From assembly GCA_017545185.1 (NCBI GenBank), contig JAFWQJ010000020.1, positions 1 to 64,000 of the forward strand: a stretch of 64,000 bases of DNA. Reading direction: 5' to 3'. The first letter of the stretch is position 1; every line of letters begins with the position of its first letter. Both the position numbers and the translations under genes were made by a program. This document shows positions 2,937-53,083 of this stretch, one piece after another. This stretch comes from Oscillospiraceae bacterium (GTDB lineage Bacteria > Bacillota > Clostridia > Oscillospirales > Ruminococcaceae). The notes below the pieces were generated by a model. It did not search any database and was not told the origin of the DNA. It saw only the letters and a program-made list of their open reading frames with translations.

Positions 2937-2967
2937 CTGCGTATATCATGAAAAATGGGAAATTGCA

Positions 2968-5535
2968 TCAGCCGCGCGGTGCCCATTCCGGCAGATCGGT
3001 AACCAAGATGCCGGTGCCGTCCTGTGTGCTGAACGGAACGTAGCAGGTGTTGCCGGACATCCGGACATCATCCCACAGACCGATCAGCGGCGTAATATTC
3101 TGAATGTGATGCTCCTCGCTGTTCGCCCAGTCATAGCGGAACATCAGAATTGTTCTGCTGTAGCCGTCCTCCGACGACCTGATTGCAAAGAACATACCGT
3201 CCCAGTACAGAACCGGCGCATAGGCCTCGTACTGGCAAACCGGGACATTCTCCCGGACGGCTCTGAACGCGCCTGTATTCAGATCATAGCTGCACCACTG
3301 CTCTTTGGTATTCTTGAACCAGAACACATGATCGTGAACGCAGCACAGCTCTGTGTTCTGTACAAGCTCGCCTTCCGGGAGGCGGTATTCCTTTTTGTTC
3401 GTAAAGCTGCCGTCAAACTGTATAATGACATTGCTGTCCTTTACCGAATAGAAGTTGCCGTCCGCCGCGCTGCCCTGCGCGAGCAGCACACCGATCGCAT
3501 TGTCAACGCCCTCCGGACCGGGCTGTGCGACCAGCTTCTGCGTATCGCTGACAGTGTCCGCCAGAATCATATAGGTCGCATCCGGATCGACACCCGGCAC
3601 GTTCAGACCGACCGAACCGGTGACCAGATACTTTCCGGTTGCCGTTCCGCCTGCGCCGGTAACACTGACGATCTGCCGGACATAGAGGTCATCCGCACCG
3701 ACCGTCATGCCGTTGATCTGCGTGATCCGGAACATCTGCGTTTCCGTTCCGTTTTCCATATTGACGCGGTACAGGTCATTGCCGCGCTGCATCCACATAG
3801 CGGTATCGCCGCTGCAGTGCAGGGGCATCTCGACTTTGCCGTTCCGGACATAATCAGTGGAATCCGGATGGCTCTGCCGCATATTGAAATGATAAGCAGG
3901 GCAGCTCTCGCTGTCATGCCGGCAGTCCTTTTTATCGCAGAGATCGCCCAGATAGTTCAGCATCACGGAATCCTCGCTGTGATAGGTGAAACGGGAGCCG
4001 TCACTGCTGTAGACATACGCGCTGTCTGCCCAGTAATCTCCGCAGAGCCATGTCAGGGCGCCCTTGCCGCCGAAGATATTGGAGCCGTCCGCAGCGGTCA
4101 ATGCCGGAGCACCCGTGGTCTGCGCCGCGGTCTTTGCTGTCGTCTCCGCAGCGGTTCCGCTCACGGCCGTACCGGTCACGCCGGTATCCGTACCGCCGCC
4201 GCTCACAGCAGTCGTCACGGTCACTTCCGCAGAACTGCTGCTGTCGTCCGGCGTGCTGTAATTGTAATTCTCACCGAAGTACAGCACCTTTTCGGTTTTC
4301 AGGTCGATCATCGCACCGTCCTCGCCGTGTTTCGAGGGACGCGGAATACCGTCCGACGTCATCGGCAGATACACGATGATCAGGTCATCGGACTCGTACA
4401 TGCCCAGGAAGGCCGCCATATCCGGCATTCCGTAGCGTTCCGTATCATAATACTGATCAACCGGCACGGAATACACAAGCTTCTCATCTTCCGAATCGTC
4501 GAGGTCATTTCTGTACAGGCAGAAAACGCCGTTCTTGATCTCCGCCGCGTAAAATGCCTTTCCGACATAGCAGCGCGCATCCGGCGCAAGCACAGCATCC
4601 GTCCGGAGCCGCCCGCTGCCGAGCTCCACGACCATATAGCGCTCCGGCGCATCGTTCGGGTTCTCGTAGCTGCCGTCGTTCTTTTTTGCGGTCAGATACA
4701 GACAGCCGTTCTGCACCGCAGCAGCACTGCAGTCAAAATAGGCTTCATCGGCCATCCAGAGCGGTTCCTCGGTCAGAGAACCGGTTTTCAGCTCATAATG
4801 CGTCAGCGCTTTTGTCACCGGGCTGAATCCGTAGTAGCTTGTTTCGCCGTCCGGGAACAGCATACAGCTGGTCGGGTTCTCCTGCTGATAGGCGACCCTG
4901 TTCGCAAGGTCTGCGATCAGCAGCGTCGGATACTGTGCATCCTCATTGTAGTCAATGCAGAGCAGCCGGTCGCTGAGCTTCCGCAGTTTGACGATCCGTT
5001 CCGGATCGATCTGCATCGGGAACTGGAATGCTTCGATGTCAATGAGCTCTGTCTCCTTCCCGAAGCTGTCCGTCTCAAAGATTTTGCCGTCATGCAGGCG
5101 CAGCAGGTGTTTGCCGTCCATATAAAGGCCATTCTTGCACGGATTCTCGTCCATATAAGTCACCTTGCCGCCGCTTTTGACGGACCATTTCGCATCGCCC
5201 GAATAGACATTCTCATCGTCATAGCAGACCGTGCCGTAATTGCCGGTCATCTGCCGCAGCGCGCCGTGTCCGCCGTAGAGATTCTCCGTTGTTTCGGGAG
5301 CGTCAACCATGCTGCTTTCGGTATCGGAATGTGCAGTGTCGATCTTATCCTTGTTTGCCTTATATGCGATCATGCCGACGACGACCGCAAGGGCTGCCGC
5401 GACCGCGCCGAAGCTGACGGTCATTCTCCGGATCTGCCGGATCCTGCGGCGTTCGGAGCCGTCCCACGAGACAGCCTCCTCGAGATACTCGCCGCGAATG
5501 GAACTCATAATATTCATATAATCCTGCTCTTTCAC
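2968..5535 (-). CDS. Single-pass membrane protein with duplicated extracytoplasmic sensor domain; probable anti-sigma partner
   Basis: A protein of 855 residues: a short charged cytoplasmic N-terminus, one transmembrane helix (about 39-58) and a very large outer part. The outer part holds two related halves, each opening with a similar block (NLYGGHGALRQMTGNYG and NIFGGKGALTWLCGDYW), joined by a Thr/Ala-rich linker. Repeated short beta-type segments suggest propeller-like folds. The start is GTG: AAAGGAGGG lies upstream, and GTGA overlaps the TGA stop of the sigma-factor gene, so translation is coupled. ECF sigma factors usually pair with a membrane regulator in this position, so an anti-sigma or signal-sensing role is likely. 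I see no recognised anti-sigma domain, so this rests on context. The second half contains a Cys-rich patch (CDKKDCRHDSESC) that might bind metal. Confidence 0.75.
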   Translation of the reverse strand: MKEQDYMNIMSSIRGEYLEEAVSWDGSERRRIRQIRRMTVSFGAVAAALAVVVGMIAYKANKDKIDTAHSDTESSMVDAPETTENLYGGHGALRQMTGNYGTVCYDDENVYSGDAKWSVKSGGKVTYMDENPCKNGLYMDGKHLLRLHDGKIFETDSFGKETELIDIEAFQFPMQIDPERIVKLRKLSDRLLCIDYNEDAQYPTLLIADLANRVAYQQENPTSCMLFPDGETSYYGFSPVTKALTHYELKTGSLTEEPLWMADEAYFDCSAAAVQNGCLYLTAKKNDGSYENPNDAPERYMVVELGSGRLRTDAVLAPDARCYVGKAFYAAEIKNGVFCLYRNDLDDSEDEKLVYSVPVDQYYDTERYGMPDMAAFLGMYESDDLIIVYLPMTSDGIPRPSKHGEDGAMIDLKTEKVLYFGENYNYSTPDDSSSSAEVTVTTAVSGGGTDTGVTGTAVSGTAAETTAKTAAQTTGAPALTAADGSNIFGGKGALTWLCGDYWADSAYVYSSDGSRFTYHSEDSVMLNYLGDLCDKKDCRHDSESCPAYHFNMRQSHPDSTDYVRNGKVEMPLHCSGDTAMWMQRGNDLYRVNMENGTETQMFRITQINGMTVGADDLYVRQIVSVTGAGGTATGKYLVTGSVGLNVPGVDPDATYMILADTVSDTQKLVAQPGPEGVDNAIGVLLAQGSAADGNFYSVKDSNVIIQFDGSFTNKKEYRLPEGELVQNTELCCVHDHVFWFKNTKEQWCSYDLNTGAFRAVRENVPVCQYEAYAPVLYWDGMFFAIRSSEDGYSRTILMFRYDWANSEEHHIQNITPLIGLWDDVRMSGNTCYVPFSTQDGTGILVTDLPEWAPRG

Positions 5536-23829: not shown

Positions 23830-23858
23830 TTGAAATTCACGAAATAATATGTTATAAT
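23830..23858 (+). promoter_or_regulatory. Sigma-A promoter of the NTPase/pentapeptide gene
   Basis: TTGAAA and TATAAT are spaced by 17 bases, 29 bases before the chosen start. The GGDEF gene's promoter diverges from the same short interval. Confidence 0.8.
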
Positions 23859-23887
23859 GTAGAAAAAAGACGAACGGGGTGATTCGG

Positions 23888-26365
23888 TTGCAGCAAAATC
23901 ATTTCAAATCCCTTGCGCCCGCGAATGACATCAAGGGCGTGGAATCGTATATCGAATGGCTGGACGGGATCGTCAGCGGCGAAAACAGCGATACCTTCGG
24001 CAACATCGCCATGACCGGCGATCTGGGCATCGGCAAAAGCAGCGTCGTCCGCACGTTTGAGCGCCAAAAGCATTACAAGTTCATCTATCTCTCCGCGAGT
24101 GATCTGGGCTACCGGTTTGACGAAAAGCAGCCGGATGCCGAAGCGGAACAGAAGCGCAACGAGGAGATTCAGCGGAGACTGGAAAAGGATCTGCTGGTGC
24201 AGCTGATCGCGCTCTGCAGGCGTTCGGATATCCCGAAAAGCCGGTTCCGTATGGTGCCGGAGAACGGCTCGCCTTTTTTGCTGAAAGCGTATTCGTTCCT
24301 CTGCGGCATCTCTGCGCTCTGCGGCGGAATGCTGGCCGTCAACAGACTGACAGCGCAGACCGTTTATCCGGGCAGTCTTTCGCTGTGGCCATGGATCGGC
24401 CTTGCAGGATTTCTTGGACTCAGCGTCTGGTTCTGGAGCAACCGGCTGTTTCAGAATTACCGGCTTTCCAAGCTGTCGTTCGGCACGGACAAGACTTATT
24501 CCGCGAGTGCTGAGATCAATCCGCAGACACTGGAACCCGAAACGCTGGACACCAACCTCCACGAGATCCTCTATCTGTTTGAGCGGCTTGCAAAGAAAAA
24601 GCATCTGTTCAAAAAGCGGCGTGCTGTTTTTATCATCGAAGACCTTGACCGCTACCCCTCGGATATCTGCATTCCGATTCTGACGAAGCTCAGACAGATC
24701 AACAGTATGCTGAACAACCGTTACCGGAATCAGCACGGCGGCTACGGCCTGCATTACAAATTCATTTACCTGCTGAATGACCGCATCTTTGATGCTTCCG
24801 AAAGCAGCAAAACGATTTCCGAAAAAGACCCCTACAAGTTCTTTGACGTGATTATCCCCGTGCTGCCGAAGCTTGGGTTTACGAACAGCTCGGAAACAAT
24901 CCGTCAAACATTCGAAAATTATAGTATTGAATCTAATTTCATTTCAGAAATCGGTAAATACATTTATGATTATAGAAAACTGCGCGACATTGAGAATGAA
25001 TTTTTTGTTTATTATATGAAATTTAAAAAAATGGCATCTAACACCAGTTTACTAGCCTTTGTAACATATAAAATTTTCTTCAAGGAAAAATATGATTTAC
25101 TATTTAAAAAAGATGAAGATACAGGTGAGCCACAAAATGGTTTACTAAAATGCTTCTTAAATCACGATTTCGCATCCCACAATTCCGTCGGATTTGAAAA
25201 ATCGCTTGAATCATACTTCATGAAAGACTTATTCGTAATTTTACAAACAGATTCCGCTACCATTCGCAAATGGCTAAAGAATTATCCTGCTAACAGTGCC
25301 GAAAATGAAAATCTCATAAATATTAATTTATCCGGATTAAATCTTTCATCTATGGAACTCGACCATATATCTTTAATAGGAGCTCGACTTGTCAACACAA
25401 ACCTGCAAAATACCAACTTGTCATTTTCTAATTTAAAAGATGCGAATTTACACAGTGCTAATTTATCCAGTGCCACATTAAGTCACGCAATTTTAAGTAA
25501 TGCCGATTTACAAAGTGCAAATTTAGCACATGCAGATTTAACTGAAGCTATATTAATCGGCGCAAAATTAAACAGAGCTCATTTATTTCATGCTACACTA
25601 TTGGATGCTAAATTAAACGGAGCTGATTTAACATCTGCGAACCTAAATGGTGCACGTTTAAGCAGAGCTATCTTAACCGAAGCCATTTTGGACTATGCCT
25701 TTATTAATACTGCTAGTTTTGTTCATGCCAATTTGAAAAAAGCACAACTAAAATGGACTCATTTAGCTAATGCCAGTTTTCAGCACGCCATTCTAACTGG
25801 CGCAAGTCTAATTAACGCAAACCTAGTTAAAGCTTACTTGACTGATACAGATTTAACCGATGCAAAATTAAACAATTCAAACTTATCCCGAGCCAACTTA
25901 ACAAACGCAACATTGACTAATGCTGTTTTAATCGGCACCAATATGACAAAAGCACGATTGCAGAACGCGATTCTTCACAACGTCAATTTAGCTAATACTA
26001 AACTAGTCAGAGCTTGTTTAATTGGAACTGATTTCAAAGAATCATACAATCTTTCATTAGCAAAATGGAAAAAAGCAAGATACTGTCTTTCATCCCCAAA
26101 TGGTTTATGCTCATTTGCTGAAAAATGTGAACATGTGAACGAATTCGGAATCAAAGAATGCTGTTTACATAATTCACATACCAACTTTCCTAGCAGATTT
26201 AACCCTCAAGCCAACCAAATGATAAAAGTAGATATAAACGATACCCTCGTTCCTCCGCCCGTCCCCGCAGAAGAAGCACCCGTCTCCGAATCAGACGACA
26301 GCACCAACAAAAAATCCGCATCTGCTCCCCCGCCGAAAAAGCACAAAAAGAAAAAGCGCAAATAA
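23888..26365 (+). CDS. YobI/KAP-type membrane P-loop NTPase fused to pentapeptide repeats
   Basis: An 825-residue protein. Walker A is GDLGIGKS (44-51) and Walker B FIIEDLDR (248-255). Two membrane helices (about 133-151 and 164-184) interrupt the NTPase, as in KAP/YobI families, some of which serve in phage defence. Residues about 475-720 are pentapeptide repeats of A-x-L-x-x type (SNADLQSANLAHADLTEAIL and many more), forming a right-handed beta-helix. The C-terminus is Pro-rich and ends in a Lys-rich tail. The TTG start follows GGGGTGA; GTG at 23879 is the alternative. From about 24900 to 26235 the DNA turns markedly AT-rich with different codon use, while both ends match the genome. This suggests a mosaic gene with an acquired C-terminal part. 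Function is inferred, possibly defence. Confidence 0.85.
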   Translation: MQQNHFKSLAPANDIKGVESYIEWLDGIVSGENSDTFGNIAMTGDLGIGKSSVVRTFERQKHYKFIYLSASDLGYRFDEKQPDAEAEQKRNEEIQRRLEKDLLVQLIALCRRSDIPKSRFRMVPENGSPFLLKAYSFLCGISALCGGMLAVNRLTAQTVYPGSLSLWPWIGLAGFLGLSVWFWSNRLFQNYRLSKLSFGTDKTYSASAEINPQTLEPETLDTNLHEILYLFERLAKKKHLFKKRRAVFIIEDLDRYPSDICIPILTKLRQINSMLNNRYRNQHGGYGLHYKFIYLLNDRIFDASESSKTISEKDPYKFFDVIIPVLPKLGFTNSSETIRQTFENYSIESNFISEIGKYIYDYRKLRDIENEFFVYYMKFKKMASNTSLLAFVTYKIFFKEKYDLLFKKDEDTGEPQNGLLKCFLNHDFASHNSVGFEKSLESYFMKDLFVILQTDSATIRKWLKNYPANSAENENLININLSGLNLSSMELDHISLIGARLVNTNLQNTNLSFSNLKDANLHSANLSSATLSHAILSNADLQSANLAHADLTEAILIGAKLNRAHLFHATLLDAKLNGADLTSANLNGARLSRAILTEAILDYAFINTASFVHANLKKAQLKWTHLANASFQHAILTGASLINANLVKAYLTDTDLTDAKLNNSNLSRANLTNATLTNAVLIGTNMTKARLQNAILHNVNLANTKLVRACLIGTDFKESYNLSLAKWKKARYCLSSPNGLCSFAEKCEHVNEFGIKECCLHNSHTNFPSRFNPQANQMIKVDINDTLVPPPVPAEEAPVSESDDSTNKKSASAPPPKKHKKKKRK

Positions 26366-26370
26366 ACACA

Positions 26371-26410
26371 AACAACCGGAGACGTCCCCGCCTCCGGTTG
26401 TTGTTTTGTT
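26371..26410. terminator. Terminator after the NTPase/pentapeptide gene
   Basis: AACAACCGGAG and CTCCGGTTGTT form an 11-bp stem followed by GTTTTGTTT on plus. The convergent CotH gene ends just beyond, so it may act on both strands. Confidence 0.85.
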
Positions 26411-42132: not shown

Positions 42133-42153
42133 GATATTGCAAAAAGCAATATC
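42133..42153 (-). terminator. Hairpin overlapping the LRR-2 stop codon
   Basis: GATATTGC and GCAATATC pair perfectly around TTTTT on the minus strand, starting in the stop codon. No clear T-run follows, so it is a weak terminator or an mRNA 3'-end hairpin. Confidence 0.5.
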
Positions 42154-43651
42154 ACTCCATATCCAGGATATCCTGCCAGCCGACAGGGTTGTGCGCGACA
42201 ACGGTCTCCGTATAAAACCGGAGAATATACTGCGCGTCCTTCACGGTGAGCGCGCCGTCCTCGTCAACATCCGCCGCCGTTTCCAGCGCATCCGGCAGGG
42301 AATACGCCCTGCCCGCGAGCCGCTCCGTATATACCTTCAGGACTAACTGCGCATCTTCCACGGAGAGGGCGGTGTCCCCGTTTGCATCGCCGGGCTTCGC
42401 GCGGTATATTTCCCCCAAAGACAAGATCTGCACGCCGGCTTCCTCCCCGTACTTCATGGTGCTCGTGCCTTCATACGCATAAAGGGTCAGCTCCGGCGAA
42501 TCCGGAAGCACGTTCTTCCCGAACGAGGGGAATACACTGAACACCTGGAACTCCCCGACGCCCGTGCAGCCTGCAAATGCCTCATCCCCGATCTCAGCGA
42601 CCGCCTCATACAGCACGACACTGTGCAGTCCCGTGCAGTTCCGGAATGCGCCCGGCCCGATGATCCGCAGCATCGCCGTTTCGGTAAAAAACTGCAATCC
42701 GGTGCAGCCCGCAAAAGCCTCCTCGCCGATCTCCTCGGCATTACACACGCCGTCTGCCGAAGAAAGCAGACTGCATCCCGCAAACGCGCGTGCACCGATC
42801 CGCTTCACGTTCATGCCGGTGAAGCCGCGCAGCTTCCCGCAGCCGGAAAAGGTCTCCGGCGCAATGTCGGTGATGCTCTCCGGCAGCGTGAGATATTCAA
42901 GAGCGGTCTCCCGGAATGCTCCCGCGCCGATCTCCGTCAGCGTATCCGGCAGAATGAGTCCCAGCATTGCCGAACAGCCCGCGCACATCTCCGCCGGAAG
43001 CTTTGTGACGCTTTTCGGTATACTCAGCTGCTTGATCGCCGTGCAGCCGGAAAACGCGCCCTCGCCGATCTCTTTCAGGCCGTTGGAAAACCGCACGCCG
43101 GTCAGCGCCGTGTTGCCGCTGAATGCATACGGCGCGATCGCGGTGATCCCCTCGGACAGGCGGACGACCCCCTTGCATTTTGATGCGTCGATCAGAACAT
43201 GGCCTGCCGTGACCGGCTCGCCGGTTTTCTGCTGCTTGTTCAGCCAGAACGTCCCGCGGAACGCATCCCTGCCGATATCCGTCAGTGCGTCCGGGAATGT
43301 GCATACAACAAGCCGTTCACACGCCGCAAATGCCTCCGCACCGATCCTGCAGACAGACTCCGGCAGCTCAACATGCCGCACCAGCGTACCCGCAAAGGCA
43401 CCGTCTGCGACTGCCGTGACCTGCACGCCCCGCACCGATCCCGGCACCGTGACTGCCGCACTCTCACCCGTATATCTGCTGACCTCCGCATGATCCGCAT
43501 ACAGCGTATACACAATGCCCGCTGCCTCGACCGCCTCTGCCGCGCTGACCGCAGCAGCCGCCGGTGCCGGTTCATACGGCAGCACTGCCGCCGTTCCCGT
43601 CAGCAGCGCACAGGCCGTGATAAAAGCCGCAAGCCTCTGAAACTGTTTCAT
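42152..43651 (-). CDS. Secreted BspA-like LRR_5 protein with dockerin (LRR-2)
   Basis: A 499-residue exported protein with signal peptide (to about 35), an Ala-rich spacer, and about ten LRR_5 units (for example FAACERLVVCTFPDALTDIG, FSGCTAIKQLSIPKSV, FAGCSLLSSADGV, FRNCTGLHSVVLYEAV). It ends in the same dockerin type: DANGDTALSVEDAQLVLKVYTE, quoted here as NGDTALSVEDAQ, and DVDEDGALTVKDAQYILRFYTE, quoted as DEDGALTVKDAQ, then a tail with VGWQDIL. The start follows AAAGGCGGG; an ATG nine codons upstream is less well placed. It has its own promoter. Confidence 0.87.
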   Translation of the reverse strand: MKQFQRLAAFITACALLTGTAAVLPYEPAPAAAAVSAAEAVEAAGIVYTLYADHAEVSRYTGESAAVTVPGSVRGVQVTAVADGAFAGTLVRHVELPESVCRIGAEAFAACERLVVCTFPDALTDIGRDAFRGTFWLNKQQKTGEPVTAGHVLIDASKCKGVVRLSEGITAIAPYAFSGNTALTGVRFSNGLKEIGEGAFSGCTAIKQLSIPKSVTKLPAEMCAGCSAMLGLILPDTLTEIGAGAFRETALEYLTLPESITDIAPETFSGCGKLRGFTGMNVKRIGARAFAGCSLLSSADGVCNAEEIGEEAFAGCTGLQFFTETAMLRIIGPGAFRNCTGLHSVVLYEAVAEIGDEAFAGCTGVGEFQVFSVFPSFGKNVLPDSPELTLYAYEGTSTMKYGEEAGVQILSLGEIYRAKPGDANGDTALSVEDAQLVLKVYTERLAGRAYSLPDALETAADVDEDGALTVKDAQYILRFYTETVVAHNPVGWQDILDME

Positions 43652-43693
43652 CTGATGATCCCGCCTTTCTGTTTTCATCCCCCGGTTACTTCG

Positions 43694-43722
43694 ATTATAA
43701 CAGCTTTTTGAAGAAAAATCAA
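43694..43722 (-). promoter_or_regulatory. Sigma-A promoter of LRR-2
   Basis: On the minus strand TTGATT and TATAAT are spaced by 17 bases, about 43 bases before the start codon. Confidence 0.8.
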
Positions 43723-43732
43723 GCATTCAGCC

Positions 43733-43776: not shown

Positions 43777-46700
43777 TCATGCGTTCCGCAGCTGTGCCCA
43801 TGTCACGGTCTTGCCCGCAACGGTGTTTTCCGTGTAGTATTTCAGGATCAGCTGGACGTCCTCCACGCTGACCTTGCCGTCGCGGTTAATGTCCGTCGCC
43901 TGAACCTGCGCCTGCGTCAGGCCGTTCGGCTTGCCCGAAAGTCCCTCGGTATACGCTTTCAGTGCAAGCTGTGCGTCGATGACCGAGACGTCATTGTCGC
44001 CGTCGGTATCGCCGAGTGCGGTCTCGCAATCGTAATCCGCAAGGGCATACTGTCCGCTGACGGTCTTGCCTTTCAGCAGTCTGAGTGCAGATGCACGTTC
44101 CGCCGGACTGTCCGACAGAGCCTTGCTCAGATCAAGAACGCTCATGAACTTGTCATAATAGGTCGTGACGCCGTCGCGGACGACAAATGCGACCGGATTT
44201 GCATTCACGTACATCAGCACATTGCCGGATGCATCCAGAAATTCAAAGACTGCCTCCGCCTTGCCGTTCACTTCATAGTACTCCCAGTAGGTCTGCACGC
44301 GGCAGGAAAGCGGTGCGCTGTCATACGCGCTCAGTGCGGCGATCTCCGCAGCATTGTCCTTCAGGGTATCCGTGACGTTGCGGTAAGGCTCGTAGTTTTC
44401 CGGATCGGCTTCATTCACGCGGAACAGGTCACCGGTGACGTTGATCTGCGCGACCTTCTTCATGAATTCGTCTGCCTGCTTCTGATATTCCGCCTGCTCT
44501 GCCGCGGTATAGCCGTCTGTTTTCAGATACGGCACCAGCTTCAGGGAAATCTGCATTCCGTTGACCGGTTCTTTGCTCTCCGGCTCAACTGTCAGCGGCT
44601 CAAACCGGTAGCCGTACTTCTGCGCATATTTCTGCGCGGTCGAACCCTCGAATCCGGCGATCGTGCCGTTGAAGAATGCGCGATTTGCCCGGATGCCGCT
44701 GCTGATCGTCCATTCGGTGTCTGCGATGTCGCATTCCGGATTCATGATGACGATGCGCTTCAGCGCGCCGCAGAGATAGAATGTATTTTCGCCGATCCTG
44801 CCGACGCTTTCCGGAAGGACAATGTTCTCCACGGATGCGCAGCTGAAGAATGCGCCTGCGCCGATGCCGGTGATGCTGTCATTGACAAAGATCGTTCTGA
44901 TGGAACGGTTGAAGTACGGATCGCCTGTGATCGCATATTCAAACCACGGTGCGGTCTCCTCCTTGTTGATGTCGTAATCATCCATGTCGCCGGAGCCTTC
45001 GATCTCCAGGTTCTGCAGCACAAAATTATATGCCCATGTTGCGTGCTCACCGCACTGGCCGCGGAAGGTATCATCGGGGAAGTGTGTCGTGACCACAGTC
45101 TCAGTTGTTGTCACGCCGGGGATATCCGTCGCTGTCGATGCAGCGGTCGTTGTCGTAACGCCGGTGATTCTGGTTGTCGCTGCGGTCGTTGCAGTTGTCT
45201 GCTTTTCGGTGCGGGTCACTGCAGTTGTGGCCGCGGTTTCAGCCGCCAGCGCCTCAAACTGATAACCGTACTTCTGCGCATATTTCTGCGCGGTCGAATC
45301 CTTGTAGCCTGCGATCGTGCCGTTGAAGTATGCGCGGCCATCCTTGATGCCGCTGCAGATCGTCCGGTCTGTATCCGCGATCTTGCATTCCGGATCACGG
45401 ATCTCAATGCGGTTCAGTCCGGTGCAGCTGCAGAATGCGTTTGCACCGATCCGGCTGACATGTTCCGGAACAGCAACGCTCTCCAGTCTATCGCAACCGT
45501 AAAACGCGTCGGAGCCGATGCCGGTGATGCCGTCCCCGAACCGGAGCGTGTTCGGGAAGCTGTAATTCCCGAATGCACCGAACCCGTCTTCATAATACCA
45601 CGGTGCAGGCTTTCCCTTGCTGACGTCGTAATCCGCGATATCGCCCTCGCCGTCAAAGGAAAGCTCTCCGTATACGATGTGATACGAGAATGTTGCGTTT
45701 TCGCCGCATTTGCCGTACAGCTTATCATCCGTCAGGACATCCGTGCCTGTCGTCACAAAGGTCGTGCCAGTTTCCTCCGCACTGTCCGGTGTCTTGGCGG
45801 TCGTGGCCGTTGTCTTTGTCCCGACGGAAACCTTTGCGATCGACGTCGCTTTCGTGTAGGGCTTGGTCGTCTTTGCAGCCGCGGTCGTTGTCACGCCGGG
45901 GATCACGGTCGTCTGTGCCGGTGTCGTGATATCACAGTCTCCGCCGCAGAATGTTGTTCCGGGCATTGTCATGGGATCGGGTGCCGTCGTCATAATGAGA
46001 ATCGGAGACTCTCCCAGTGTCTCAAAGGGAATATCATACTGATCTGCATATCCCTGCGCGCTCGATCCGTCATAGCCGCGGATCACGCCGCTGTAATACC
46101 GCCTGCCCGCTTCGTTAACGCCGTTGCTGATCGTGAATCTGCCGGTGGGGATCCTGCAGTTCGGATTCTCGAATGTCACGGATTCCATTGCCGTCATATC
46201 CGCCAGTGCACCAGGGGCAATATCGATCACAGCCGGGCCGACGACCACATTCTTGATCCTGTCGCGGTGCATGAACCATGGTGCCACATCCTGATAGCTC
46301 GATCCGGTGATCTCTCCGTTGACCTTTACCAGACCGGTGTAATCATCCATTTTGCCGTTCTCGGAAATCGTCAGAGTATCGCCCGTCAGCGCCCATTTCA
46401 GGCCGCCGCCGCATTCTCCGGACGTCGGTACTTCACCGGCCGGCTCAAAGCTGATGTTGAAATGCTCTGCGTATTCCTGCGCAAGCGAACCTTCCAGGCC
46501 GCGGAGCTTGCCGGTAAAGGTGAAATCATCCGCCCAGTGCCCGGAATTGCTGAACGCAACTGCGTTCCAGTCCTGATCGGAGAGATAGGTGTAATAGCCT
46601 TCCACGGTCACGGTTTCCAGATTCTCACAGTCCGTGAACGCTTCGGGATCGACCAGCTTCACGCTTGCCGGGATCGTGACCTCTTTCAGCGCGCTGCATT

Positions 46701-49164: not shown

Positions 49165-50946
49165 TTATTTCATCAGTTCTTCCCATGTGACATGCTTGCC
49201 TGCGACCGTGTTTTCCGTGTAATATCTCAGGATCAGCTGGACGTCCTCGATGCTGACCCTGCCGCTTTCATCGACATCCGCGGCGGTCGTTTCCTTTTCA
49301 TTGAACGTCGCCGCCTTGCCCGAAAGACACTCGGTATACTCCTTCAGCACGGTCTGCACATCGTCAATGCTGATATCACCGTCACCGGTCACATCGCCGC
49401 GCTGATACGCGTTTTCCGGCGGGTCTAGCGCCTCGAACCGGAAGTTTCTCTGCAGCGCAATCTGATGCGCGATTGAATCTCTGAATCCGACGACTACGCC
49501 GGTATAATAGCCCCGGCCGTTTTCATCCGCACCGTTGCTGATCTGGTTGCTCATCATGCATTTCGGATTATGAAACGTGATGCGTTCCAGCACCGGCAGG
49601 TCGCTGAACGCGCCGATCGCGGTATCATCCACATAGGCGCCGACCACGACGTTCTTGATCTTGTCGCGATACATAAACCACGGCGCAACGTCCCAGAGGC
49701 GCATCCACTCCGAAATATATTCTGTCTTACTGTGATCATAGCCGGAGAACTCCTCCATATCGCCGTGTCCCTCGATATACAGCGTGTCTTCCTCAAATGC
49801 CCAGACCATTTCCTTTGCGAGATAGCCCGTTTTCGGCGGTGCGCCGAGCGACTGGAACCGCAGGCCGAGTTCCTTTGCAGACATCTGGGCAATGGAACCG
49901 TCATAACCCTTGATCACGCCGGTATAGCTGAACTTTTTGGAATATTCGCCGGTGTTGCTGATCGAAATGCCGTAGTCATAATTGACGTCCGCCGGCACCT
50001 TGCTGCCTGCCAGATTCGTATAAAAATATTGAAAGGTCACTTCCTTCAGGGATGTGCACTCCGCAAACGTGCCTGCGCCGATACCGCGCAGATACGCCGG
50101 CAATACGACAGCTTCCAGCGCCGCACATCTGTGAAATGCATAAAGCCGGATCTCCCGCAGGCTTTCCGGAAATTTGAGCGTTTTCAGTGCGGTGCAGTCC
50201 TCAAACGCAAACTGTTCAATGATCCTGACGCCCTCGCCGAATGACGCATCCGTCAGCGCCGTGCAGGACTGGAACGCCTTTGCCTCAACGGTCTCCACAC
50301 CGCCGGGAATGCTGATCTCTTTCAGGCCGCTGCCGCGGAACGCCTCCTTGCCGATCACGGCCAGCGTTTCCGGCAGCGTGATGCCTGTCAGTGCCGTGTT
50401 TTCCGCAAACGCGCCGGTCACGATCTCCTCCGTGCCCTCCGGGACTGTCACGGTGCCCGTGCAGCTTTTGCCGTCAATGACGGTGCGGTCGGCGATCACG
50501 AGCGGGTCCTTCGCCTTCTGCGCCGCATACCACTTTGTTCCCGCAAAGGGATTGTCAAAAAAATGTACCCGCTCCGTGCGCTCCGAAAACGTCACGGTCT
50601 CCAGATCGGTGCAGTTTGCAAAGCTGCCCGCAAGGACATAGCCGACCGTTTTCGGGATCGTGACGGATCTCAGCTTCGTGCAGCCCTTGAACGCTTCCTC
50701 GCCGACCCATTCGACGGTCATGTCCCCGATCTTCTCCGGGATGACCAGATCCGCCGGGAGCTCCGACGTAAAGCCGTTGATCATGCATCTGGTGCCGTAA
50801 TCCTCGTAGGTCATGCCGTTGTACTCTCCGGAAACGGTTTTATCTGCGGCAAAAACCGTCAGCGGGTCCACCGGGAGCATCCCCGCGCCGCCCGTCATCA
50901 GCAGGCAGGCTGCCTGCAATACCGCGAATGTTCCAATACCCTTCAT
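49165..50946 (-). CDS. Secreted BspA-like LRR_5 protein with dockerin (LRR-5)
   Basis: A 593-residue exported protein. The signal peptide (MKGIGTFAVLQAACLLMTGG) is close to that of LRR-4. LRR_5 units follow (FKGCTKLRSVTIPKTVGYV, FEDCTALKTLKFPESLREI and others), then one module with a GDMEEFSGYD segment and APWF, and a second closing block (VVGFRDSIAHQIALQRNFRFEAL). The dockerin (DGDISIDDVQTVLKEYTECLSG; DESGRVSIEDVQLILRYYTE) ends in VAGKHVTWEELMK. GAAAGGAAAGC precedes the ATG; forty codons of open frame upstream lack a site. It is the first gene of the LRR-5/LRR-4 pair, with a promoter at 51005-51033. Confidence 0.87.
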   Translation of the reverse strand: MKGIGTFAVLQAACLLMTGGAGMLPVDPLTVFAADKTVSGEYNGMTYEDYGTRCMINGFTSELPADLVIPEKIGDMTVEWVGEEAFKGCTKLRSVTIPKTVGYVLAGSFANCTDLETVTFSERTERVHFFDNPFAGTKWYAAQKAKDPLVIADRTVIDGKSCTGTVTVPEGTEEIVTGAFAENTALTGITLPETLAVIGKEAFRGSGLKEISIPGGVETVEAKAFQSCTALTDASFGEGVRIIEQFAFEDCTALKTLKFPESLREIRLYAFHRCAALEAVVLPAYLRGIGAGTFAECTSLKEVTFQYFYTNLAGSKVPADVNYDYGISISNTGEYSKKFSYTGVIKGYDGSIAQMSAKELGLRFQSLGAPPKTGYLAKEMVWAFEEDTLYIEGHGDMEEFSGYDHSKTEYISEWMRLWDVAPWFMYRDKIKNVVVGAYVDDTAIGAFSDLPVLERITFHNPKCMMSNQISNGADENGRGYYTGVVVGFRDSIAHQIALQRNFRFEALDPPENAYQRGDVTGDGDISIDDVQTVLKEYTECLSGKAATFNEKETTAADVDESGRVSIEDVQLILRYYTENTVAGKHVTWEELMK

Positions 50947-51004
50947 GACGCTTTCCTTTCTGTTTTTCTGTTGACTGTCGCTGTGCAGAACGCGCATCGT
51001 AAAC

Positions 51005-51033
51005 ATTATAACATATATTGCACAAAAAAGCAA
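51005..51033 (-). promoter_or_regulatory. Sigma-A promoter of the LRR-5/LRR-4 pair
   Basis: On the minus strand TTGCTT and TATAAT are spaced by 17 bases, about 60 bases before the LRR-5 start. Confidence 0.75.
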
Positions 51034-51054
51034 GGAATCGGAGAATATTTTTCG

Positions 51055-51087
51055 CAAAAAAGACACCGGCCGGATGCAGTCGGTGTC
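51055..51087 (-). terminator. Terminator of the pdxK/S-component operon
   Basis: On the minus strand GACACCG and CGGTGTC pair around a 12-base loop, followed by TTTTTT. Confidence 0.87.
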
Positions 51088-52495: not shown

Positions 52496-53083
52496 TCAGA
52501 TTTTACAGATTACAGCAAGTGCTGTAACGATGATCGGTATAAGCCCGAGCAGAATGAAAACGATATTCCCTTTCATATTATGGAGTTTCTGTTCTGATCT
52601 CTTTTCTTCTGTTACCGTATCTCTTAACTTGTTCAGGATCGGTTCAGAACAATCGTTCTTTTTGAAAATCATCATCTTATTGATCTCAGTGAAACAGATA
52701 ATGTATTCGCTGTCTTCATACACTTCGCTTATTTTGTCATAGTAGATTTTTGAGGTAGATGTTTCATGATCTCTGAAAATATGATCGTCATAAAAAACGT
52801 AACGGTTTGTATTGCATCTGTTTTCCTGTAACACCCTATACGCTTTTTTTATGTTTCGTCCCGAAAAGAAAAATGACACAAGAATAAATGTACCCAAAAT
52901 CAGAAACAGAGTAGCCCAAAAATCAAAGCTCGGGGCAAATGCTCTGATGATAACAGATGACAGGACATAAATGACCGCAATGATTAAGATACATTTGTCC
53001 CCATGCTTATATCTGCATCTTACGCCAAGTTTATATTCCTCATAAGATATATTCGATTCGATTTCACCGATCTTGTTTTCCAT
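52496..53083 (-). CDS. YcxB-like membrane protein, AT-rich gene
   Basis: A 195-residue protein with two membrane helices near the N-terminus (about 32-48 and 56-74) and one at the C-terminus (VFILLGLIPIIVTALAVI). Between them is a domain with the YcxB-like pattern (YYDKISEVYEDSEYIICFTEINKMMIFKKNDC). Function unknown. The gene is clearly more AT-rich than its neighbours (many AAA, ATA, TTT codons), suggesting recent acquisition or relaxed origin. GGAAGG precedes the ATG; its promoter is at 53191-53219. Confidence 0.8.
   Translation of the reverse strand: MENKIGEIESNISYEEYKLGVRCRYKHGDKCILIIAVIYVLSSVIIRAFAPSFDFWATLFLILGTFILVSFFFSGRNIKKAYRVLQENRCNTNRYVFYDDHIFRDHETSTSKIYYDKISEVYEDSEYIICFTEINKMMIFKKNDCSEPILNKLRDTVTEEKRSEQKLHNMKGNIVFILLGLIPIIVTALAVICKI

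Follow-up and report, generated by a model that had tools for sequence, protein, structure and literature searches.

Apparent in-place exchange of the pentapeptide half of a YobI/KAP-type NTPase gene from an Oscillospiraceae bacterium

We describe a mosaic gene in a 64,000-nt stretch of DNA (the window) that encodes, in this order, a YobI/KAP-type NTPase with Walker A and Walker B motifs and a hairpin-like segment between them, a pentapeptide array, and a short tail. Compared to the syntenic gene of a relative, the block that starts in the C-terminal end of the NTPase domain and stops just short of the tail appears to have been replaced, whereas the front, the tail and both flanks lie at the local background identity. 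We favour, with modest confidence, the view that the gene encodes a Tmn-like, stand-alone, membrane-type KAP/YobI NTPase acting as an immune sensor with an exchangeable pentapeptide half. This is the best explanation because of the match to Tmn, the literature, the restriction-gene neighbours of two relatives and the variability of the repeat half; the anti-phage role is what we infer from them. The coordinates of the features are collected in Table 1.

Table 1. Positions in the window of the features of the NTPase gene and its surroundings.
Feature	Position	Strand	Remarks
Promoter-like TTGAAA-17-TATAAT, TG before the -10	23830..23858	+	11/12 match; TTGACA-17-TATAAT ahead of the G021 gene
Shine-Dalgarno-like GGGGTGATT ahead of the TTG start at 23888	23876..23884	+	sequence; GGGGTGAT(T/C)CGGTTG also in G021
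YobI/KAP-type NTPase with pentapeptide array	23888..26365	+	825 aa; 828 aa if GTG 23879 is the start
Host-style front, most of the YobI-ATPase domain	23888..24889	+	codons 1-335; GC3 about 0.70-0.71; 82-91% nt identity to G021
Walker A GDLGIGKS, aa 44-51	24017..24040	+	
First putative transmembrane helix, aa 131-149	24278..24334	+	most hydrophobic 19-mer of the protein, Kyte-Doolittle 1.52
Second putative transmembrane helix, aa 164-182	24377..24433	+	Kyte-Doolittle 1.47; between Walker A and B
Walker B VFIIEDLD, aa 247-254	24626..24649	+	
Apparently replaced AT-rich module: C-terminal end of NTPase domain, linker, pentapeptide array, cap	24890..26259	+	GC 0.34, GC3 about 0.27-0.28
Conserved NTPase C-terminal stretch YDYRKLRDIENEF, aa 360-372	24965..25003	+	inside the replaced module
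Pentapeptide array, ~44 repeats, aa 499-718	25382..26041	+	net charge +5
Pro/Lys-rich tail, ~34 codons and stop, common to G021	26260..26365	+	98% nt identity over 33 aligned codons; GC3 0.57
Terminator-like hairpin between convergent genes	26371..26402	-	scored on the minus strand only (CotH side)

Results

Codon Composition Changes Twice within the Reading Frame

A reading made from the sequence alone had placed an AT-rich stretch with different codons at about 24900-26235, within the frame, and the composition at third codon positions (GC3) agrees. The best two GC3 change points are 24893 and 26237, with a GC3 of 0.27 between them and 0.69 outside. The log-likelihood gain of these two breaks is 73.2, compared to 3.3-20.6 in 15 other selected window genes, and it also exceeds the maximum of 13.0 among 200 codon permutations. 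When the expected GC3 was normalised for amino acids, using the codon use of 11 window genes, the linker (0.26 observed, 0.71 expected) and the repeats (0.25 and 0.73) fell far below expectation and the NTPase front was at 0.70, with 0.74 expected. Leucine is encoded by TTA in 35 of 64 cases, compared to 1% in the 11 window genes. The GC3 shift is not an amino-acid effect.

The local GC-rich style had been claimed for both ends of the gene. This holds for the start (GC3 0.70) and only in part for the end, where the 35 codons of the tail reach 0.57 with 0.76 expected; by composition, the return to the host style is only partial. We place the tail in the host lineage on the strength of its 98% identity to that of the relative described below, and not of its composition.

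The Middle of the Gene Departs from a Syntenic Relative

The closest genome carrying the gene, G021, which we take to be Ruminococcus sp. Phil11 (MSGZ01000025.1), has the same neighbours on both sides. When the first 80,000 bases of its contig were divided into four stretches for the comparison, 95% of the window could be aligned, at a median identity of 94%. Within the gene, the DNA identity in 40-codon steps is 82-91% in the front, 37-66% in the middle (12 steps, one with too few aligned codons to score) and 98% over the last 33 aligned codons, and the downstream flank is 95% identical. This comparison puts the junctions near 24889/24890 and 26259. The replaced middle and the G021 gene have no 17-mer in common on the same strand. 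At the protein level, three sections of the front are 83, 80 and 94% identical to G021, and three of the replaced part 52, 57 and 43%.

The G021 gene itself shows a drop in GC3 from 0.72 to 0.46 (gain 24.8, compared to a maximum of 7.8 in 300 permutations), which maps to window codons 328-369 and overlaps the break of the window gene at codons 336-342. Since the two breaks map near the same codon, this boundary may have been used more than once; that an older low-GC middle was common to both ancestors and was later replaced once in the line of the window is also conceivable. In summary, an exchange of the module in place is well supported as the likely history of the gene, because the identity of the middle collapses between a matching front and tail and because the middle of G021 also departs from the composition of its host; three alleles are known. 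The sequence-only reading had proposed a chimera with foreign DNA inside the frame and had looked to relatives for different C-terminal halves. The GC3 breaks, the normalised codon shift and the loss of identity to G021 bear out the former, and the comparison with G021 and a further allele, G016, the latter.

Among 18 selected window genes, only this one contains a block without alignment to G021. As many as 21 of the 30 low-identity steps (among 425) lie elsewhere in the window and nine in this gene, so other variable blocks exist. Alignment to the G021 contig is poor or absent at about 2950-4130 and at 45240-45865. An AT-rich open reading frame at 52496-53083 (GC 0.36, 195 aa), with a YcxB-like match just under the Pfam cut-off, lies in another unaligned block. 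Two genes of the BspA leucine-rich repeat type are also divergent: the one at 42152-43726 (GC3 0.49) is 83% identical to G021, and the one at 49165-51066, which carries a dockerin, is only 72-74% identical at about 49501-50250 and is possibly another mosaic repeat gene.

The Junction Lies inside the NTPase Domain

The assignment to the YobI/KAP-type NTPases, already made from the letters, is borne out by a match to the Pfam family YobI-ATPase (PF20693; E 5e-58, 197.7 bits, cut-off 27). The break had been placed after the NTPase, and this was wrong: the Pfam match spans residues 36-410 in GTG numbering and the break falls near residue 338, inside the domain. The conserved stretch within the replaced module includes D361, R363, L365, N370 and E371, residues that all of 13 aligned YobI-type proteins have in common. 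The two putative transmembrane helices fall below the Kyte-Doolittle threshold of 1.6, and the corresponding hydrophobic pair of the G016 protein is clearer (2.56 and 1.78). Among the nine Pfam families listed for the protein (E up to 0.1), there was no NACHT/STAND NTPase domain, and Pfam revealed no separate effector domain in the window allele.

The pentapeptide profile PF00805 matches with 173 bits (E 6e-52), and the array lies within the module, as expected from the earlier statement that the acquired part carries the repeats. The suggestion of a new NTPase-pentapeptide fusion is not supported, given that the foreign DNA continues the NTPase domain and that pentapeptides are present in both other alleles as well. 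With the break located within the domain and the conserved residues retained in the foreign DNA, we rejected a fresh fusion of the NTPase with an unrelated pentapeptide gene. A gyrase protector of the Qnr/MfpA type was likewise rejected (Qnr 67.9 bits for a cut-off of 240, MfpA 54.4 for 360); the net charge of the array, to be compared with the DNA-like electrostatic surface of those proteins, is +5 by residue count only. The NCBIfam pentapeptide family Alr5209 (NF052603) scored above its cut-off (160.7 bits, cut-off 125) in six stretches. Since this 113-position model matches repeats only, the score mirrors the repeat number, and membership in the family has no bearing on immunity. By eye, the C-terminal cap FP..F.P....MI.VD is alike in YobI- and NACHT-pentapeptide proteins. 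Similar ends occur in other pentapeptide proteins, and the shared cap therefore carries no weight.

Start, Promoter and Neighbourhood

The TTG start at 23888 that had been proposed is backed by the Shine-Dalgarno-like GGGGTGAT, which is kept in G021, and the promoter noted in the earlier reading corresponds to a near-consensus site that has a counterpart 5′ of the G021 gene (Table 1). A scan of 3.3 kb scored 12 promoter-like sites, compared to 5.9 in shuffles. The gene does stand alone, flanked by two minus-strand genes. The neighbours identified by Pfam are a LacI/GGDEF protein, a CotH-dockerin protein, a PRPP synthetase-like protein and an inorganic pyrophosphatase; further genes, judged malQ-like and FeoB-like, were identified only by eye. 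The link to defence islands that had been expected is thus not seen at 23888-26365, where the neighbours are apparent housekeeping genes. A scan for the boundaries of an invertible element gave two inverted repeats: the terminator hairpin and, at the right junction, an imperfect one (19 nt, 84%). Given the synteny with G021, the idea that a mobile element recently brought in the whole gene is not supported. In two other genomes of the genus, G004 and G025, the orthologues of the GGDEF and CotH genes are on different contigs, so that an empty site is not definable.

The Repeat Half Differs among Alleles

Across 30 genomes of the genus, PF20693 was present in three, namely that of the window (G000), G021 and G016, and all three proteins have pentapeptides. 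The repeat number and net charge are ~44 and +5 in the window, ~12 and 0 in G021, and ~24 and -13 in G016. An AT-rich half kept throughout the genus, which would have spoken against the sequence-only reading, was not found: the gene is confined to these three genomes, each with a different half. In G016, the entire allele is AT-rich (GC3 0.30), but its two non-repeat replaced sections are only 45% and 29% identical to the window protein, so that it cannot be the direct donor. It lies at L021 5682-8198 and consists of an N-terminal stretch resembling HsdR_N (E 3e-4; 21.2 bits, under the cut-off of 25.1), the YobI NTPase and the pentapeptide array, with repeat-rich ITIPDSVTSIG-type genes on both sides.

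Three more genomes of the genus (G004, G025 and G003) encode an NTPase followed by pentapeptides. Only the G004 protein exceeds the NACHT cut-off; those of G025 and G003 stay under it but pass NPHP3_N, which we take to be a NACHT-like model. These three proteins have a long N-terminal extension, and none has a pair of hydrophobic 19-mers above 1.6. The G004 protein (L022 1202-4813; 1203 aa) has ~87 repeats by a simple register count. Its GC3, without amino-acid normalisation, is 0.66 in the repeats and 0.35 in the rest (gain 50.5), the reverse of the split in the window gene, and may result in part from amplified near-identical repeats. The corresponding gains are 12.5 in G025, 5.7 in G003 and 3.6 in G016. 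The G025 gene adjoins relaxase and mobilisation genes and the G004 gene adjoins a resolvase.

In a survey of 15 further loci, 14 matched the YobI type (L065 gave no match; L128 and L129 are one gene, which leaves 13 distinct genes), and no pentapeptide pattern was seen in any of them, their C-termini being partly out of view. Nine of the 13 reading frames have 882-1300 aa, and the others have 504, 643, 794 and 1793. Two distant YobI-type genes, noted individually, lie next to restriction genes: one on a plasmid directly beside hsdR and one beside an AlwI-type endonuclease gene. The former (L143 5013-7652, Wohlfahrtiimonas plasmid pBM-Y) is annotated as hypothetical and lies directly 3′ of hsdR in a type I restriction cluster.

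Search for a Donor

The foreign stretch continues the YobI-ATPase domain and keeps its invariant residues, and the donor gene was therefore most likely built in the same way and came from a genome richer in A+T. No donor was found among the phylum, order and family genomes, genome contigs, viral contigs, plasmids and phages within the following limits. The replaced half matched in three of 398 phylum genomes, that of the window included. The NTPase part matched in eight of 394 order genomes, again with its own, and in seven of 396 family genomes (G000, G021, G016 and four distant ones). The scan of genome contigs confirmed one of 78 candidates, which we take to be the G021 contig, and the viral contigs yielded 25 and 144 candidate stretches, none confirmed. 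A query coverage of at least 80% was not reached among the matches listed, the best 30 of 997 plasmid records and the best 30 of 402 phage records. We also rejected a silent store of alternative cassettes in G000, where the one match of the protein is the gene itself; the genome has one other pentapeptide match, which is weak and lies in a 193-aa frame.

Discussion

If the gene is an immune sensor, the C-terminal pentapeptide beta-helix would recognise a phage or invader molecule, and binding of the target would release the NTPase. The freed NTPase could then assemble at the membrane via the helical hairpin and halt the infected cell, either by damaging the membrane or by arresting growth. The replaced part would set the specificity of recognition, with a phage as the presumed trigger. 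The patchy distribution of PF20693 in the genus and the repeat half, which varies most among the three alleles, count for a sensor; the housekeeping-like locus, the partial match to Tmn, the moderate hydropathy of the hairpin and the lack of a separate effector domain count against it.

The same facts could be read as pointing to a membrane NTPase with no immune function, in which the pentapeptides form a scaffold and the C-terminal half was swapped by ordinary interspecies recombination with no selection for new recognition. We consider this unlikely, though far from negligible. It fits with the neighbouring genes, with the presence of the gene at one place in two species and with the other window blocks that are likewise unaligned to G021, and pentapeptide domains can serve as scaffolds (PMC8145042, in the part covered). 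It does not account well for the patchiness in the genus (3/30), for the similarity of the window, G021 and G016 proteins to Tmn, or for the strong differences in repeat number and charge among the three alleles.

The other explanations dispense with the proposed exchange, or reverse it. The genome is in 94 contigs with an estimated contamination of 3.85%, and reads of two species might have been joined in one contig; however, the frame is open across both junctions, the middle retains the invariant NTPase residues, and G021, a separate assembly with a different middle, has its own change in composition close to that of the window gene, which makes an artefact very improbable. Repeat arrays can gain and lose units, and in G021, too, the repeat half has a lower GC3 than the front, as would be the case if the repeat half simply drifted fast towards A+T without recombination. 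This is hard to reconcile with a shift that starts in a conserved globular domain and not at the repeats, with TTA rising from 1% to 35/64 of leucines, or with the third-position identity to G021, which falls from 0.71-0.86 to 0.30-0.52 in the middle and reaches 0.97 in the tail (40-codon steps), and we give drift little credence. It is equally implausible that the AT-rich half is the older part and the GC-rich NTPase front the newcomer: the AT-rich G016 allele would suit this order, but the front, the tail and both flanks are at about the background identity to G021 and only the middle departs. We retain the immune sensor with an exchangeable half as the preferred reading.

Pentapeptides and KAP NTPases are already known in conflict systems, and so are variable sensors in NLR-like proteins. 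What is new is the combination of a YobI/KAP NTPase with a pentapeptide array and the location of an apparent exchange inside a syntenic gene, of which we found no earlier account in the literature searched. A wider proposal, which we put forward tentatively as a possibility we would not yet bet on, is that these genes form a single-gene immune receptor family of gut Ruminococcus whose pentapeptide recognition half is a cassette traded in place between KAP/YobI alleles and also used behind NACHT-type NTPases, so that recognition would evolve by cassette exchange and not by point mutation alone. If the immune reading is true, it would give pentapeptide repeats a role in recognition, and in their mode of evolution Tmn-like NTPases would stand next to NLR-like receptors. 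Variable recognition halves recur in bacterial immune NTPases; here a natural exchange may be read with both junctions placed within a few bases. As three alleles combine the same kind of front with different repeat halves, a role of the pentapeptides in phage specificity is directly testable by exchanging modules.

Relation to Known Systems

Among known defence systems, the PADLOC model of Tmn matches the window protein with E 6e-27 over residues 9-410, the G021 protein with 4e-32 and the G016 protein with 1e-19. The match of the window protein covers only positions 26-425 of the 1273 in the model, and the C-terminal region of Tmn is unmatched. The part of PMC11846954 covered describes Tmn as an NTPase of the KAP family that has two transmembrane domains and inhibits several phages through a mechanism yet unexplored. 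The window protein is similar to Tmn in its YobI/KAP-like NTPase, its Walker A motif and two hydrophobic segments between Walker A and B, and it differs in length (825 aa, compared to 1273 model positions) and in having a pentapeptide array in place of the long C-terminal part. A KAP NTPase is a P-loop NTPase with two transmembrane segments inserted in the domain (from the title of Aravind 2004, as cited in PMC11846954); the most hydrophobic stretches of the window protein (aa 131 and 164) do lie between the Walker motifs, but reach only 1.52 and 1.47. It resembles the YobI-like P-loop NTPases of PF20693 (197.7 bits), unlike which it carries pentapeptides, the matched relatives having no such pattern in the part in view.

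In the portions of the literature covered, KAP ATPases possibly take the place of STAND NTPases in counter-invader systems (PMC8195603), pentapeptides are variable or fused modules in conflict systems (PMC7159879, PMC10853773), and pentapeptide domains are also gyrase-binding DNA mimics or scaffolds (PMC8145042). Counter-invader and related conflict systems thus share variable or fused pentapeptide modules and KAP NTPases with the gene described here; a KAP/YobI-pentapeptide fusion does not appear in the parts of PMC7159879, PMC8195603 and PMC10853773 covered, nor was a description of such a protein found in the literature searched, which included few subscription papers.

Like the NACHT/STAND-type bacterial NLR-like proteins, whose recognition is the subject of Bechon 2024 (as cited in parts of PMC12724215, PMC12169576 and PMC12931631), the window protein has an NTPase followed by a repeat half, and G004, G025 and G003 have such proteins with pentapeptides. 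Its NTPase belongs to a different family, and those three proteins differ further in their N-terminal extension and in lacking the >1.6 hydrophobic pair. KAP is also among the NTPases joined to recognition domains diversified by diversity-generating retroelements (DGRs), according to the part of PMC10907252 covered. Such STAND/KAP sensors have the same layout, an NTPase, sometimes of the KAP type, joined to a diversified recognition domain. They vary by reverse-transcriptase hypermutation of a C-type lectin fold (PMC10907252, same part), whereas the window gene seems to vary by block replacement of its pentapeptide half.
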